Shown: piece after piece, positions 44,532 through 50,484 of the stretch
Layout of the letters: each line of letters starts with the position of its first letter
How positions within the stretch are numbered: the stretch's first letter is position 1
Origin: Streptomyces vinaceus
GTDB taxonomy: Bacteria; Actinomycetota; Actinomycetes; Streptomycetales; Streptomycetaceae
Length of the DNA: 64,000 nt
Direction of reading: 5' to 3'
Assembly: GCF_008704935.1 (NCBI RefSeq)
Contig: NZ_CP023692.1
Location: 4,454,001 to 4,518,000 of the forward strand
The notes under the pieces: model-generated
Seen by the model: only the letters and a program-made list of their open reading frames with translations
Databases searched by the model: none
Told to the model about the DNA's origin: nothing
Made by a program: the position numbers and the translations under genes

Positions 44532-45710
44532 ATGACCACCACGCTCGTCACCAACATCGGCAGCCTCGTCACCAACGACCCCGCCCCCGGCGACGGGTCA
44601 CCCCTCGGCCTGATCGAGAACGCGGCCGTCGTCATCGACGGCGGGACCATCGCCTGGGTCGGCCCCGCCGGCCAGGCCCCGGCGGCCGACTCCGCCTTCG
44701 ACGCGCACGGCCGCGCCGTCATCCCGGGCTTCGTCGACTCCCACTCCCACCTCGTCTTCGCCGGTGACCGCACCGCCGAGTTCAACGCCCGCATGTCCGG
44801 GCGGAGCTACTCCGCCGGCGGCATCCGGACCACGGTGGCCGCCACCCGCGCCGCCACCGACGCCGAGCTCGAAGCCAATCTCGTCCGCCACCTCGACGAG
44901 GCCCGCCGCCAGGGCACCACCACCTTCGAGACCAAGTCCGGCTACGGCCTCACCGTCGAGGACGAGGCCCGCGCGCTGCGCATCGCCGCCGCGCACACCG
45001 AGGAGGTCACCTACCTCGGCGCGCACATCGTCTCCCCCGACTACGCCGAGGACCCGGCCGGCTACGTCGCCCTCGTCACCGGCGAGATGCTGACGGCCTG
45101 CGCCCCGTACGCCCGCTGGGTCGACGTGTTCTGCGAGAAGGGCGCCTTCGACGGCGACCAGGCCCGCGCGATCCTCACCGCCGGCGCCGCCGCCGGCCTG
45201 ATCCCGCGCGTCCACGCCAACCAGCTCTCCTACGGGCCCGGTGTGCAGCTCGCCGTGGAGCTGGAGGCCGCCTCCGCCGACCACTGCACCCACCTCACCG
45301 ACTCCGACGTCGACGCCCTCGCCCAAGCCGCGGACACCACCGTCGCCACGCTGCTGCCCGGCGCCGAGTTCTCCACCCGCGCCCAGTGGCCCGACGCCCG
45401 CCGCCTGATCGACGCGGGCGCCACCGTCGCGCTGTCCACGGACTGCAACCCCGGCTCCTCGTACACGAGCTCTATGCCCTTCTGCATCGCCCTCGCCGTA
45501 CGCGACATGGGGATGACCCCGGACGAGGCGCTCTGGGCGGCCACCGCCGGCGGCGCCCGCGCCCTGCGGCGCACCGACATCGGCCGGATCGCCCCCGGGG
45601 CCCGCGCCGACCTGGCGCTCCTGGAGGCGCCGAGCCACGTCCACCTGGCCTACCGGCCGGGCGTTCCGCTGGTTTCGGCGGTCTGGCAGAAGGGCGTTCG
45701 CGCGCACTGA
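44532..45710 (+). CDS. hutI: Imidazolonepropionase
   Basis: 392 residues. Opens the imidazolone ring to give formimidoyl-glutamate. Amidohydrolase motifs [39 protein letters not shown], and [17 protein letters not shown] with the metal Asp. Last gene of the hut operon, ATG 44532 with AAGGGAACC before it. The operon order hutU-M20-hutF-hutI puts steps 2, 5, 4, 3 of the pathway together. Confidence 0.97.
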
Positions 45711-45780
45711 CGAACGGTCGATCCGGGCCTGTCCTTTGTCTTCCCTCCGTAAGGCCCCGGGCGTACCTTGAGCCACCGAT

Positions 45781-45795
45781 CTGATGTGCCGTCAG
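45781..45795. promoter_or_regulatory. Imperfect inverted repeat upstream of surface operon
   Basis: CTGATGTGCCGTCAG has six paired positions (one wobble) around its centre, 43 bases before the first surface gene. TTGAGC at 45768-45773 could be its -35. Candidate operator; a related GGCGGTCAG follows. Confidence 0.35.
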
Positions 45796-45838
45796 GAAAC
45801 TGGCGGTCAGGAACCCGTGGCCCGAGGGGAAGACGAAG

Positions 45839-46510
45839 GTGTCCGACCGGAAACGCTCCACCGCGCTCGCGCTGGCCTCCGCGCTGGGCGCGGCGGCGGT
45901 CCTGCTGGCCGCCCCCGCGGCCCACGCCGACGTCGTCGACGTCGCGTACGACTGCAAGACCCCCATCGGGGACAAGTCGGCGGTCTCGCCCATCGACATC
46001 AAGGCCGTCAAGGAAGGCGGCGGGTACAAGCTGACGATGTCCTTCCAGAAGGGCGTCTCCTCCAGCCCCGTCGAACTCGGCAAGGGCGCCATGAGCCCCA
46101 GCGCCGTCGTCCTCGTCGGCGGCGCGGAGAAGGCGTCCGTGCCGGTCTCGGGAGCGTCCAATCCCGAGGCCGTGCCCGCCAACACCCCCATCAAGATCAC
46201 CGACCTCTCGGGCACCTACACCCCCAAGAAGAGCGGCAAGGTCACCTTCACCGCGGGCGTGCTCACCATCAAGGCGCTGGGGACCACCACCACCTGCACC
46301 CCCGGCAACAGCCCCAAGCCCTCCCTGGAGCTGGACGTGACGGGCGCCGGATCGTCCGGGGGCTCCGGCGGCGCTGAGGAGGACACCCTCCCGCAGACCG
46401 GACCCACCGACTCCGCGCTCGCCCTCGGCACCCTCGGCGCCACCGTGTTCCTCACCGGCGCCGCCGGCGTGCTCTGGCTGACCCGGCGCGGCCAGCGGGC
46501 CCGGTCCTGA
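45839..46510 (+). CDS. Secreted LPQTG-anchored surface protein
   Basis: 223 residues. Signal peptide (cleavage near AHA-DV, residue 30), one 140-residue beta-rich domain with a Cys pair (C39, C153), an Ser/Gly-rich spacer, then the sorting tail EDTLPQTG (LPQTG at 184-188), a hydrophobic helix (LGTLGATVFLTGAAGVLWL) and a basic end. Sortase would link it to the wall. The domain (VAYDC...GGxYxLTM...ITDLSGTYTPKKSGKVTFTAG) recurs in the gene at 48683. GTG 45839 with AGGGGAA upstream. First gene of a four-gene operon; no known family assigned. Confidence 0.9.
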   Translation: MSDRKRSTALALASALGAAAVLLAAPAAHADVVDVAYDCKTPIGDKSAVSPIDIKAVKEGGGYKLTMSFQKGVSSSPVELGKGAMSPSAVVLVGGAEKASVPVSGASNPEAVPANTPIKITDLSGTYTPKKSGKVTFTAGVLTIKALGTTTTCTPGNSPKPSLELDVTGAGSSGGSGGAEEDTLPQTGPTDSALALGTLGATVFLTGAAGVLWLTRRGQRARS

Positions 46511-46527
46511 ACGGAGCGCCCCCGGCC

Positions 46528-47586
46528 ATGCCCGTGCTCCACACCCCCGCGCTCCCCGCCGGCCGGCGCCCGCTCACCGCCCTGCTCACCGCGGCCCTGT
46601 TGCTCGGGGCCGCGGTCGGCACCGCCGCCGCCACCCCCGCCACCGCCGCCGCCACCGCCGCCCACGCCGACGAGCCCGGCTGGACCGCCGAGCCCGCCGC
46701 GGGCAGCGCCGGCCCGGCCCGCCCGTACTTCTACCTCTCGGGCCCCGCCGGCACCGTCCTGGAGGACCGGCTGGCCCTGACCAACAGCTCCGACCGCGAG
46801 CGCACCGTCACCCTGCGCGGGGCCGACGCCTACAACACGGCCGACGGCGCCCTCGCCGTACGCCCGGCGGAGCCCCCGGCGGCGCAGGGGCGCGGCGGCA
46901 CGGGCCGGGGCGCCGGCTCCTGGATCAGCTTCGGGACGGCCACCACCGTGCGGATCCCGCCCCGCACCCGCGCGGTGGTCCCCTTCACCGTCACCCTCCC
47001 GCCCGCCTCCCCGCCCGGCGACCACCCGGCCGCCGTGATCGCAGCCGAGGACGGCCGCGAGGCGGGCGTACGGGTCCACCTGCGCGTCGCGGGCCCGACG
47101 CTGGCCGCCCTCACGGTCGAGGACGTCTCCGTACGCGGCGAGGGCGCCCGCGCGGTCGTCGCGTACACCCTGGTCAACCGGGGCAACGTGGCCCTCGTCC
47201 CCGAACTGGCGCTGCGCGCCGAGGGGCTCTTCGGCGAGGTCCCGGGCCGTACCGCCCGCGCCCTGCCCATGGAACTGCTGCCCGGCCAGCGGGTGTCGCT
47301 GACCGAGCCCTGGCCCGGGGCCCCGGTCCTCGACGACGTCGACCTGACCCTCACGGTCACCGCCCCCGGCGCGGCCCCGGCCACCGCGAGCACCTCGGCG
47401 TGGTTCGTCCCCTGGGGGATCGCGGCCCGGACCGGCGCCGGGCTGCTCGGCCTCGGCGGGGTCGCCCTGGCCGCGCTTCTCCTCGTACGCAGGCGGCGGA
47501 CCCGCGGCGGGGGACCGGCGGACGAGGAGCCCGTACCCGGGGGGAAGCGGGCACCGGAACACGAGCTGACGGGAGCATCCAGGTGA
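46528..47586 (+). CDS. DUF916/WxL-interacting-like exported membrane protein
   Basis: 352 residues. Signal peptide ending near AHA-DEP (residue ~48). Two Ig-like external domains follow: YFYLSGPAGTVLEDRLALTNSSDRERTVTLRGADAYNTADG, then FVVPFTVTLPPASPPGDHPAAVIAAEDG and VRVHLRVAGPTLAALTVEDVS. One C-terminal membrane helix (AGLLGLGGVALAALLLV) and a short basic cytosolic tail come last. The first domain pattern (GTVLEDRLALTNSSD) resembles DUF916 proteins, which in Firmicutes bind WxL surface proteins. The match is by eye. It starts 17 bases after the first gene and overlaps the next by four bases. Confidence 0.85.
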   Translation: MPVLHTPALPAGRRPLTALLTAALLLGAAVGTAAATPATAAATAAHADEPGWTAEPAAGSAGPARPYFYLSGPAGTVLEDRLALTNSSDRERTVTLRGADAYNTADGALAVRPAEPPAAQGRGGTGRGAGSWISFGTATTVRIPPRTRAVVPFTVTLPPASPPGDHPAAVIAAEDGREAGVRVHLRVAGPTLAALTVEDVSVRGEGARAVVAYTLVNRGNVALVPELALRAEGLFGEVPGRTARALPMELLPGQRVSLTEPWPGAPVLDDVDLTLTVTAPGAAPATASTSAWFVPWGIAARTGAGLLGLGGVALAALLLVRRRRTRGGGPADEEPVPGGKRAPEHELTGASR

Positions 47587-48686
47587 GCGCAAGGGTCGGC
47601 GGGACGGCAGCCGGAGCGGTCGGCGCCGCGGTCGTGGCGTGCCTGGCGACGGGGCTGGCGCTGTGCGCCCTGGTCCTGTTCCCGGCCCCGGCGGCCCGCG
47701 CCGCCGACGGCAAGCCCGCCGTGGCGCTCTCGCTCCAGGAGGCCGCCAAGGGCACCGAGATCACCGTCACCGGTACCGGCTGGCAGGCCAAGACCCTGGT
47801 GATGCTGCTGGTCTGCGGGCAGAACATGATCGGCGGCACCAACAGCTGCGCCAACGCCGACGGGGCCGCGGTCTCGGTCGGCGACGACGGCCGCTTCGCC
47901 GCCCAGCTGGCCGTGGCGGCGCCGCCCAAACCCTGCCCCTGCGTCGTCAACGTGACCTCCGTGGGCGGGGACCAGGCCACCGTCGCCGCCCCGCTGAAGA
48001 TCACCGACCACCCGGTGGCCGAGCTGCCCGCCGAGTCCGGCTCGGCGCGCCTGGCCATGCTCAGCGGGGTCCGGCTGGAGGGCGAGGACGGGGTGCTGAC
48101 CTGGTTCGGGGCCCCGCCCGCCCGCACGTTCACGGTCACCGTCGGCAACCTCGGCTCGGCCCCGGTCAAGGACCCCGTCTTCCAGCTCGGCACCGCCCAC
48201 GGGGTGTTCGCGCCGCAGTGGGACGAGGCCCGGTGGAAGGGCACGATCCCACCGGGCGGCAAGGCGGAGGTCCGGCTGGGCGTCAGCCTGGCGGCGGGGG
48301 CGCACGGGGACTACACCGTCTCCCTCAAGTACGGGGACACGGTGGTGGCCACGCAGCCCTGGGGCGTGGACCGCCCGTACGGGGTGCTGCTGTTCTGGGG
48401 CCTGCTCCTGCTGGTGATCCCGGCCGGAGTCTTCCGTATCGGCATGGCCGTCGTGGACAGGGTCCGGCCGCGTTCGGCGGCGCCGGGCGGTGGCCGCCAC
48501 CGAGGCGCGAAGGCGCCGTTCCCGGAGCAGGAGGCCGCCCAGGGGGCCGCGCCGGTCTCCCCCCAAGCCACCACGGCGGTACTGCCGTGGTTCACCCCGG
48601 ACAGCGCGCCGGGGCCGAGTGACCCACACGTACCACAGGCGTCCGCACCGTCTGAGAACAGTCCGACGACGAAAGGACCTTTGTGA
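47583..48686 (+). CDS. Exported single-pass membrane protein with Ig-like domains
   Basis: 367 residues. Signal segment (AAVVACLATGLALCALVLFPAPAARA), one Ig-like domain (KPAVALSLQEAAKGTEITVTGTGWQAKTLVMLLVCGQNMIGG) containing several Cys (VCGQN, SCAN, PCPC), a second domain (FTVTVGNLGSAPVKDPVFQLGTAHG), a C-terminal membrane helix (LLFWGLLLLVIPAGVFRIGMAVV), then about 80 cytosolic residues rich in Pro, Ala and Gln. GTG 47583 overlaps the previous stop. A tail facing the cytosol could signal or anchor. No catalytic motif is visible. Confidence 0.85.
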   Translation: MSARVGGTAAGAVGAAVVACLATGLALCALVLFPAPAARAADGKPAVALSLQEAAKGTEITVTGTGWQAKTLVMLLVCGQNMIGGTNSCANADGAAVSVGDDGRFAAQLAVAAPPKPCPCVVNVTSVGGDQATVAAPLKITDHPVAELPAESGSARLAMLSGVRLEGEDGVLTWFGAPPARTFTVTVGNLGSAPVKDPVFQLGTAHGVFAPQWDEARWKGTIPPGGKAEVRLGVSLAAGAHGDYTVSLKYGDTVVATQPWGVDRPYGVLLFWGLLLLVIPAGVFRIGMAVVDRVRPRSAAPGGGRHRGAKAPFPEQEAAQGAAPVSPQATTAVLPWFTPDSAPGPSDPHVPQASAPSENSPTTKGPL

Positions 48687-50026
48687 AGACCCAACGGAGG
48701 GTGAGCGCGGCCGTGATCGCGCTGCTGCTCGGCGGCGCCGGCATCGCGATCGGGGCGAGCCCCGCCCAGGCGGCCGAGACCAAGTTCAACGTCAAGTGCG
48801 TGCCGCCGGCGGGCGGCGGCGACCCGGTGGAGGGCGAGACCACCGCCAAGGTCAGCGCCCCGGCGTCGGCGAAGGTCGGGGACGAGGTCGAGGTGTCCTG
48901 GGAGACCGTCAAGCCGGCCTCGAACAACACGGACCTGATGGACATCCCGCAGGACTCGGTCCAGCCCACCGGCTGGATCACGGTGGGCGGCGGGGGCGGC
49001 GAGCTGAAGGTCGTCGGGGAGAAGAAGAACCCGCCGATCCCCAAGAAGGCGCCCATGCAGATGTCGACGATGAAGGGGAAGCTGAAGCTCACCAAGGCGG
49101 GCAAGATCACGCTGACCCCCGGCAAGTACGACGTCGCGGTCACCTTCTCCTTCGGCACGTTCGTCACCAAGTGCGCACCCACCGGTGCCGTGGGCGTCGG
49201 CGCCACCATCGACGTGTCGGCCGGCACCAGCGGCGGCACGACCTCCGGTACGACGTCCGGCACGACCAGCGGCACGACCTCCGGCACCACCGCCGGTACG
49301 ACCAGCGGCACCACGTCCGGGACGACCAGCGGTACGACCTCCGGCACCACCGCTGGGACCACCGCCGGGAGCACCGCCGGTGGCGGTGGCGGCCAGACCG
49401 ACTTCCCCGGCAAGCCCGTCGAGGTCGCCTTCGACTGCGGGCCGGTCGTCCCCGGCGGCATCAAGACCCCGGTCACGATCAACGCCAAGAAGAACGGCGG
49501 CAGCTACGACCTGACCGTCAAGACCGCCAAGGGCGCCATGGCCAGCCCGATGGCCCTGCCCGCGGGCGCCCTCAAGCCCTCGATGAACATCAAGCTCGGC
49601 GGCGCCGACAGCGGCATGGTCAAGGTCTCCGGACCGGCCAACGCCGAGCCGATCCCGGACAAGGCCCCGGTCAGCCTCAGCGACATGACCGGCAGCTACA
49701 AGCCCGGCAAGACCGGCAAGGTCACGCTGAGCCCGGACCAGCTGACGATCGACGTCACGATGGCCCCGGGCGCCACGCCGATCAACGTGCCCTGCAAGGC
49801 GGCCAGCAGCGGCGTCTCGCTGGAGCTCGACACCACCGCCCAGGAGGGCGGTTCCGGCTCACCGGCCACCACCGGCTCCACCTCCGCCTCGGGCGGCCTC
49901 GCCGAGACGGGCGCCGAGGACGAGGGCGGCATCAAGGCCCTCGCCCTGGTCGCCGGCACGGTGATCCTGCTCGGGGGCGCGGTCTTCACGTTCACGCCAT
50001 GGCGCCGCCTGCGCGGCCCCCGCTGA
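48683..50026 (+). CDS. Secreted LAETG-anchored protein with two Cys-pair domains and TTSG repeats
   Basis: 447 residues. Signal peptide (to about residue 31), a first domain with Cys pair (VKCVPP, TKCAPT), a repeat linker of TTSG/TTAG units (about residues 181-233), a second domain with VEVAFDCGP and NVPCKA, a Gly/Ser spacer, then LAETG (406-410), a helix (ALVAGTVILLGGAVFTF) and WRRLRGPR. LAxTG is the substrate motif of class E sortases, common in Streptomyces. Both domains resemble that of the first operon gene. GTG 48683 overlaps the previous gene by four bases and is preceded by AAAGGA. Confidence 0.9.
   Translation: MKTQRRVSAAVIALLLGGAGIAIGASPAQAAETKFNVKCVPPAGGGDPVEGETTAKVSAPASAKVGDEVEVSWETVKPASNNTDLMDIPQDSVQPTGWITVGGGGGELKVVGEKKNPPIPKKAPMQMSTMKGKLKLTKAGKITLTPGKYDVAVTFSFGTFVTKCAPTGAVGVGATIDVSAGTSGGTTSGTTSGTTSGTTSGTTAGTTSGTTSGTTSGTTSGTTAGTTAGSTAGGGGGQTDFPGKPVEVAFDCGPVVPGGIKTPVTINAKKNGGSYDLTVKTAKGAMASPMALPAGALKPSMNIKLGGADSGMVKVSGPANAEPIPDKAPVSLSDMTGSYKPGKTGKVTLSPDQLTIDVTMAPGATPINVPCKAASSGVSLELDTTAQEGGSGSPATTGSTSASGGLAETGAEDEGGIKALALVAGTVILLGGAVFTFTPWRRLRGPR
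49220..49384 (+). repeat. Coding tandem repeat of TTSG/TTAG tetrapeptides
   Basis: About 165 bases of 12-base units (variants of GGCACGACCAGC) encode a Thr/Ser/Gly spacer inside the LAETG protein. Copy number is likely to vary between strains. Confidence 0.85.
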
Positions 50027-50041
50027 CCGGCCGCTCCCCCC

Positions 50042-50082
50042 GCCGCGCGCCCCTCCCCCCAGGAAGGGCGCGCGGCCCTTTT
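50042..50082 (+). terminator. Terminator after the surface operon
   Basis: Stem 50042-50052 and 50066-50076 (11 bp, GC-rich), followed by CCTTTT. Confidence 0.75.
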
Positions 50083-50142
50083 CGTGCCAGGCTCCGGGAG
50101 TCGATCGATACGTCCGGTCCACAGGGACAGCGGGGAAGAAAC

Positions 50143-50484
50143 ATGACATTCAAGTACGCCGCGGTCGGGCTCGTCGCCCTCTGCGTGCTGGGGGCTCTCG
50201 GTACGCCTTCCGCGTCGGCCGCGCACCACAGCGGGAAGTGCAGGACCACGGCCGACATGGACGGCTTCGGGCGGCCGAACGCCACCTCCCGCTGCACGGG
50301 CGGCTTCCCTTCCGGCGCCAGGCACCGCGCGGTCATCACCTGCGACACCGTGCAGGGGGTCCGCGAGCACGTGGTGCGCCGCACCTACCGCAGTGCGTGG
50401 GCGAAGACGGGATCGCCCGCCAAGGTCGGCTGCGGATTCAAATCGTTCCTGGTCGGATTCGCGTCGGAGACGCGCGGCAACTGA
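50143..50484 (+). CDS. Small secreted four-Cys protein
   Basis: 113 residues. Signal peptide (YAAVGLVALCVLGALGTPSASA), mature part of about 87 residues with Cys in GKCRTT, SRCTGG, ITCDTV and VGCGFK, probably two disulphides, and many basic residues (RREHVVRRTYRSAWAK-like pattern). No family recognised. It has its own leader and its own terminator and lies just after the surface operon, so a link to it is possible but not shown. ATG 50143 with GGGGAAG upstream. Confidence 0.8.
   Translation: MTFKYAAVGLVALCVLGALGTPSASAAHHSGKCRTTADMDGFGRPNATSRCTGGFPSGARHRAVITCDTVQGVREHVVRRTYRSAWAKTGSPAKVGCGFKSFLVGFASETRGN

Follow-up and report, generated by a model that had tools for sequence, protein, structure and literature searches.

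Does Streptomyces encode a counterpart of the WxL surface complexes of Firmicutes, in which wall-linked proteins are paired with membrane proteins of the DUF916 type? The question is raised by four genes at positions 45839–50026 (+ strand) of a 64,000 nt stretch of the Streptomyces vinaceus genome (contig NZ_CP023692.1, positions 4,454,001–4,518,000; hereafter, the window), which encode four exported proteins, labelled A to D in this analysis. The answer reached here is a qualified one. Protein B is related to WxLIP (DUF916) proteins, and the domain shared by A and D precedes a WxL-like domain in other Streptomyces proteins, but a search of the operon gave no WxL domain, and the ends of A and D carry sortase-type sorting signals. 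The operon has about an even chance of being related to an actinobacterial WxL–WxLIP surface complex, probably by descent, with anchoring by sortase.

The genes and their main elements are as follows; signal peptides and most helices were assigned by eye or with a simple hydropathy script.

45839–46510, + strand: gene A (223 aa); an unnamed beta-sandwich domain at residues 31–170, and an LPQTG motif at 46388–46402.
46528–47586, + strand: gene B (352 aa); predicted WxLIP-like protein with a PGBD-like domain, an HBD-like Ig domain, a C-terminal helix and a short basic tail.
47017–47094, + strand: short hairpin of B (residues 164–189, 26 residues; 33–42 residues in 18 WxL-partnered relatives).
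47583–48686, + strand: gene C (367 aa); a neocarzinostatin-like domain with conserved cysteines, a second ectodomain, one hydrophobic helix and a cytosolic tail.
48582–48602, + strand: LPWFTPD, a conserved motif in the tail of C on the cytosolic side.
48683–50026, + strand: gene D (447 aa); two copies of the A-type domain, a Thr/Gly-rich linker, and an LAETG motif at 49898–49912.
48764–49219 and 49403–49837, + strand: the two A-type domain copies of D.

All four genes lie where the first-pass annotation of this DNA had placed them, and its descriptions of A as an LPQTG-anchored protein and of D as a two-domain LAETG protein agree with the motifs and with the two A-type domains of D. Conservation was followed in a sample of 121 genomes from the genus, from which 79 loci were read, namely that of the window and those of 78 of the 86 other genomes with an orthologue of C (the other eight were not fetched). 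A second set, the named loci, consists of the best 80 of 529 relatives of C, 79 of them titled Streptomyces and one Actinobacteria bacterium OV450; S. coelicolor does not appear in this set. The two sets overlap in part, so that their counts are not independent.

Protein B is a relative of WxLIP

Judged by sequence profile and by structural model, protein B is a WxLIP/DUF916 homologue, since both its family profile and its fold match EfmWxLIP1, a WxLIP of Enterococcus faecium with a solved structure. A profile built from 46 relatives of B and run against all PDB sequences placed the two EfmWxLIP1 entries at the top (E 4e-8), with the next match at E 0.065. The AlphaFold2 model of B (mean predicted local distance difference test score, pLDDT, 82.5) has two tandem Ig-like domains followed by a single C-terminal helix at residues 296–324, in keeping with the earlier description of a DUF916-like protein with one membrane helix. 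The model matches 9i25_C, a WxLIP bound to a long WxL protein, with a Foldseek E-value of 6.7e-12. Alignment to the same chain gave Z 17.5 over 232 residues (model residues 49–295) at a root-mean-square deviation (rmsd) of 5.2, and the best row that was not a WxLIP had Z 11.7. The comparison with DUF916 by hidden Markov model (HMM) and by structure, which had been named as the way to overturn the annotation, therefore found the two related. No Pfam match to DUF3324 was found in B. A paralogue of B in the same genome, 48% identical, passes the cut-off of the Pfam WxLIP_PGBD model at 43.1 bits.

The available part of Hassan et al. (PMC10599100) describes a buttressing loop in EfmWxLIP1, together with a hairpin that AlphaFold2 inserts into the WxL domain. 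The hairpin of the PGBD-like domain is 23–32 residues long in 70 operon B proteins (a range that leaves out the truncated B of locus L147), against the 33–42 residues of the WxL-partnered relatives. For a second loop of this domain, the median length is 15 residues in operon B and 33 in the homologues compared, yet this loop is long (42 residues) in the B of the window. Either of the two measured loops may be the counterpart of the docking hairpin of EfmWxLIP1, and the other that of the buttressing loop. The shortened hairpin is consistent with a loss of WxL docking but is not proof of it.

Proteins A and D share a domain and carry sorting signals

The domain of A recurs twice in D; in an hmmsearch of a small local set, the second copy of D was matched with an E-value of 7e-30 and the first with 1e-6. 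With A and D as queries, Pfam did not name the domain. The A ectodomain was modelled with a pLDDT mostly above 90, and two cysteines (Cys39 and Cys153) are invariant across an 88-row alignment of A, D and WxL-linked copies of the domain. The best structural match of A was 3lso of Corynebacterium diphtheriae (Z 9.4 over 136 residues, rmsd 3.6, 19% identity; next row Z 7.0). No sequence match between the two was found, and the top Foldseek match was a different entry (E 0.038), so kinship is not claimed. An A-domain profile found no convincing match among PDB sequences. WxL entries are missing from the 50 rows listed for the A structure, which is no evidence of their absence.

Both A and D have the layout of sortase substrates, with a signal peptide, an LPXTG-type motif, a hydrophobic stretch and a basic tail. 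In A, the signal-peptide-like start is followed at the other end by LPQTG and its hydrophobic and basic segments, which TIGR01167 recognises (18.2 bits, cut-off 15.9) while PF00746 of Pfam stays under its own cut-off. No anchor model matched D in Pfam and TIGRFAM-type scans, and its sorting signal was assigned by reading the sequence. The motifs are strongly conserved: LP[QKR]TG is present in every A (77/77 loci; 72/72 named loci) and LA[EADQN]TG in every D of the genus sample (72/72). Among the named loci, 79 of 80 D proteins have LA[x]TG, one of them as LAHTG, and the remaining D has no detectable motif.

The constancy of LP[QKR]TG on A and of LA[x]TG on D suggests, as far as motifs can tell, that two sortase classes would be involved. 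The genome encodes at least four class E and at least four class F sortases by cut-off, among the 10 of 12 sortase matches that were classified. LAXTG is the motif preferred by class E sortases according to the available part of PMC5148588, and A may therefore use a class F enzyme. Candidate substrates would be A, with its LPXTG-type motif, for class F sortases and D for those of class E. Tat-exported sortase substrates are described in PMC10924467, and the part of its text available does not name A to D. At one locus (L106:4140–5435, – strand), the first domain of D is nearly an A domain, scoring 258 bits against about 24 for the D of the window, suggesting from sequence a domain exchange within the operon.

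An alternative is an adhesion or aggregation set, in which A and D would be ligand-binding surface proteins while B and C aid their folding or their hand-over to sortase, in the manner of pilus chaperones. Pilus chaperones of the periplasm, CfaA and CupB2 for example, are indeed among the matches of the B model (Z about 11), and the two domains of D flank a Thr/Gly linker, a common layout for outward-reaching proteins. The chaperone matches, however, lie far under the WxLIP match (17.5) and are level with those to many unrelated Ig-like proteins. Protein A is short and the best conserved of the four (its median identity to the window is 75%, while B has 53%, C 59% and D 56%), unlike most adhesins. 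An adhesion set is on these grounds unlikely.

WxL-type relatives and the missing WxL domain

A HMM made from A proteins alone and run on 497 called proteins found A, D and four others: L047_2 (3.6e-10), L181_6 (6.5e-10), L048_3 (1.8e-9) and L183_8 (4.9e-7). All four have a C-terminal WxL-like domain, which the A-type domain precedes in these other Streptomyces proteins, and all four are encoded next to a B homologue. At L048, these are followed by a C homologue. The Pfam WxL model matched 6 of 10 partner proteins, for example L047_2 (E 7.5e-5) and L048_3 (E 1.6e-4). A WxL profile was built from 13 actinobacterial partners; because it is partly circular, a second one was made from five of the partners, and this finds 11 of the other partners with E-values of 1e-11 or better.

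Among 25 B homologues outside the operon, 17 have a WxL-like neighbour and three a C neighbour. The count of 25 excludes L080_8, a C protein that also matches B, and the 17 do not include L182_6, where the called frame runs over its neighbour. L182_6 was kept among the 18 WxL-partnered B proteins and in the tree described below, as an A/D-type domain was found just upstream of it. WxLIP homologues are found beside WxL-like proteins in five actinobacterial families. A single-sequence PDB search with the L185 protein gave nothing convincing.

Two of these loci have unusual partners. At L068:4634–6142 (+ strand), an HtaA domain, known from haem uptake, and a WxL-like domain are joined in one protein encoded next to a B homologue; because of this fusion, actinobacterial WxL domains appear to display varied functions. 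At L186:3810–5822 (+ strand), also of Streptomyces, a protein of the purple acid phosphatase/metallophosphatase type that includes a WxL-like domain is encoded beside a B homologue, in agreement with PMC12537917, which reports Ang-2 metal-binding domains and metallophosphatase genes in the vicinity of DUF916 genes.

In the operon itself, the WxL profile (E 1e-3, frames of at least 60 codons) had no match in any of the 79 operon loci or 80 named loci, and a complete WxL cluster was rejected as a description of it. The suggestion that the locus is a Streptomyces counterpart of the WxL complex therefore stands in part. B is homologous to WxLIP, and the A/D domain occurs in WxL-like proteins beside WxLIP genes, but the operon is not itself a WxL-type complex, because no WxL domain could be found in it or in any of the 79 loci and the hairpin of B is shortened.

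The genome of the window encodes two WxL-like domains, both outside the window. One adjoins the B paralogue. The other (4991284–4991733) is away from all three B homologues found, with an A/D-type domain upstream; the two belong to a single protein (L184, genome 4990519–4991733). The presence of these two domains would suit docking in trans, in which B still binds a WxL protein from another part of the genome and A and D are extra wall-linked partners. One of the two WxL proteins, however, already has its own adjacent WxLIP, and the hairpin is short in all 70 measurable operon B proteins while being long in all 24 other B homologues measured, which makes docking in trans improbable, even more so than an adhesion set.

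A proposed single change of anchor

A quick tree was built from 45 B proteins, among them 23 of the 71 from the operon. These 23 form a single clade, supported by an SH-like approximate likelihood ratio test (SH-aLRT) value of 99. This clade is nested in a 30-row set (SH-aLRT 99) whose other seven members are Streptomyces B proteins, six of them WxL-partnered and one without a WxL neighbour. As operon B is a single clade within a mostly WxL-partnered set, the sequences suggest a single switch from WxL to sortase anchoring, and it is on the tree, the WxLIP matches of B, the missing WxL domain, the hairpin, the shared A/D domain, the pairing of A with C and the class E and F sortases of the genome that we base our view of the operon as a sortase-anchored relative of the WxL–WxLIP complexes.

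Several observations weigh against this view. B itself scores 16.3 bits with the Pfam WxLIP_PGBD model, below the cut-off of 27.3, and single-sequence searches of the PDB found no sequence with B and no WxLIP with its paralogue. Weak PF06030 matches are present in 9 of 14 control genomes, two of them above the cut-off. The Pfam WxL matches are all under the cut-off of 25 (best 23.3 bits; part of the scan stopped at E 0.01), and a PDB search with the actinobacterial WxL profile did not bring up any WxL structure. A long hairpin (34–39 residues) is also present in six B homologues without a WxL neighbour; it is thus no sign of a WxL neighbour in itself, and the short form marks the operon clade, as one event. 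B is missing while A and C are kept in 7 of 77 assessable loci, and the sortase anchoring of A and D is predicted from their motifs only. Lastly, the outgroup of the tree does not fall cleanly on one side of a branch, and the direction of the switch therefore rests on an assumed root.

Protein C

Protein C had been described as a second Ig-like membrane protein with a long tail. Its one hydrophobic stretch and its tail, about 75 aa long, agree with this, but the protein is more than Ig-like, as its first domain just reaches the cut-off of the Pfam neocarzinostatin family PF00960 (25.9 bits, cut-off 25). The enediyne chromoprotein model NF040680 matches C with an E-value of 2e-7 and 30.8 bits, against a curated cut-off of 86 bits, and C was rejected as an enediyne apoprotein on this account. 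The C homologue of L048 scores 12.7 bits, under the PF00960 cut-off, and a C profile had no convincing match among PDB sequences. The LPWFTPD motif of the tail is found unchanged in 59 of the 79 loci, a PWF variant in 17 and neither form in three. A small-molecule ligand for C and its relatives, like that of neocarzinostatin, in an operon serving as a surface receptor or storage system, is very unlikely, since the matches to PF00960 and to the chromoprotein model that speak for it are set against the missed curated cut-off and a fold that is a common Ig-like one.

Conservation and gene neighbourhood

Orthologues of C were found in 87 of the 121 genomes, and on this count a strain-specific insertion was rejected. 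All four genes are present in 67 of the 79 loci, the others having A and C (5), A, C and D (3), A, B and C (2) or B, C and D (2); among the named loci, 70 of 80 have all four. L034 is scored as A, C and D, B and C being in one frame there, and L104 and L117 (contig ends) were left out of the tally for B and D. A is present in 77 of 79 C-bearing loci and in none of 34 genomes without C; in a control for the A search, it was found in 10 of 10 C-bearing genomes and in neither of two without C. A and C thus form a near-constant core, and B and D are lost more easily. On a tree of C, joint loss of B and D amounts to two independent pairs on supported branches, too few to judge. The single open frame of L034 (5331–7379, – strand) joins B and C with no stop between them, and the signal-like stretch of C is retained mid-frame; an alignment made around this frame placed B rows on its C portion.

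Downstream of the operon, 74 of the 79 loci have the same convergent transporter gene. An insertion between the hut and transporter genes, proposed on the premise that S. coelicolor carries other genes here, is unsupported because the operon is widespread in the genus and stands beside this same gene. Upstream, most loci have genes for a sigma factor (65/79), a STAS-domain protein (68/79) and an ATPase-domain protein (68/79), identified by Pfam on one example each. These are missing in the window (45711–45838) and in close relatives, which is why hutI abuts the operon there. Going by gene order and family, the three upstream genes may be SCO3066–SCO3068. In PMC9739823 those SCO genes are given as the sigma I system, with expression of SigI induced by OsS, read here as osmotic stress. 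An envelope role for the operon fits such a neighbourhood but is not shown by it.

In the window, the operon is flanked by hutI (44532–45710) upstream and by the convergent transporter gene (from 50579, – strand) downstream. The names hutI and POT-type transporter are provisional. Translational coupling of all four genes had been claimed: B and C, and C and D, do overlap by four bases, but A and B are separated by 17 bp. Across loci, the four-base overlap is present in 50 of 71 cases for B–C and 47 of 72 for C–D, with starts set by a simple rule. One further element follows D directly.

50027–50095, + strand: terminator-like region; a stable GC-rich hairpin, then CCCTTTTC.

The folding energy of this hairpin is –37.3 kcal/mol (z –3.7), and one of 200 shuffles was equally stable. 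It is likely the terminator of the operon, although a consensus terminator scan did not list it. Read from the sequence, the spacings of 17, –4 and –4 bases together with the hairpin 3′ of D fit a single operon. A simple consensus scan found no sigma-70-like promoter in 45600–50300, a result of little weight for Streptomyces. Beyond the hairpin, a small exported cysteine-containing protein of 113 aa is encoded at 50143–50484 (+ strand). Pfam gives nothing for it at E 0.01, and similar frames are present in 8 of the 79 loci, the window included.

A possible wall–membrane bridge

If the operon does descend from a WxL–WxLIP complex, then sorting signals on A and D would have taken the place of the non-covalent WxL wall anchor in a single ancestor of the Streptomyces operon. 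Both proteins would be linked to peptidoglycan, probably through different sortases (LPXTG for A, LAXTG for D), and B and C would remain in the membrane. Between membrane and wall, the ectodomains of C and B would meet the wall-linked domains, and we infer that the four proteins may bind one another there. Such a complex could hold the layers of the envelope together or sense the spacing between them, and the conserved motif in the tail of C could report to a cytosolic partner. A wall–membrane bridge is the likeliest function on this reasoning, and a plausible one.

A fuller version is put forward tentatively, and is doubtful as a whole: that a Streptomyces WxL complex swapped WxL for covalent sortase anchors and became a core envelope structure, in which A and C, with B and D, would tie peptidoglycan to the membrane through two sortase pathways, and the LPWFTPD tail of C would pass the state of the wall to the cytoplasm. 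As a possible link between cell wall and membrane, the operon is open to experimental test. A WxLIP kept together with sortase signals, and widespread in Streptomyces, would also provide a natural experiment on what a WxLIP does without WxL.

Comparison with known systems

Among the open-licence papers listed as matches, no description of the four-gene operon was found in titles or the openings of abstracts. WxL surface complexes are known chiefly in bacteria of the gut, and Firmicutes hold more than 91% of the 938 WxL sequences of a survey (PMC9772566).

The best structural match of the A model is to 3lso, a putative membrane anchored protein of Corynebacterium diphtheriae, at Z 9.4, but with the low identity and lack of a sequence match already described; a literature text search on 3lso gave only a paper on another subject. 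The neocarzinostatin family (PF00960) resembles the first ectodomain of C, just over the Pfam cut-off, but C differs in being membrane-bound, in its second ectodomain and cytosolic tail, and in missing the chromoprotein cut-off.

The WxLIP proteins of Enterococcus, Listeria and Lactobacillus (DUF916-DUF3324-transmembrane helix; CscA) are like B in their two Ig-like domains and C-terminal helix, and in both profile and model match. B differs in its shortened PGBD-like hairpin, and its operon has no WxL protein that could be found. The parts of the literature available differ on where the helix of such proteins resides: Hassan et al. consider it very unlikely to be in the bacterium's own membrane and propose that of the host (PMC10599100), while Siezen et al. 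take CscA to be membrane-anchored (PMC1534035). With its basic tail and its occurrence in Streptomyces, B would fit the bacterium's own membrane better than that of a host.

The WxL/csc clusters of Firmicutes (CscA–D), as described in the available parts of PMC1534035 and PMC10599100, resemble the operon in being small, in encoding exported proteins and in including a single membrane protein of the WxLIP type as well as an LPXTG protein. The WxL domain is common to their small and large WxL proteins, much as one domain occurs once in A and twice in D. In the operon, by contrast, a search gave no WxL protein, A and D both carry sorting signals, and there is a second membrane protein, C. About 150 residues precede LPQTG in A, against the 40–60 given for CscD.

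Also close are the actinobacterial WxL-type loci (L047, L048, L066, L080, L083, L181 and L183). All seven have a B homologue, three a C homologue (L048, L080 and L083), and four the A/D domain (L047, L048, L181 and L183). The partner proteins at these loci end in a WxL-like domain, whereas A and D of the operon end in a sorting signal.

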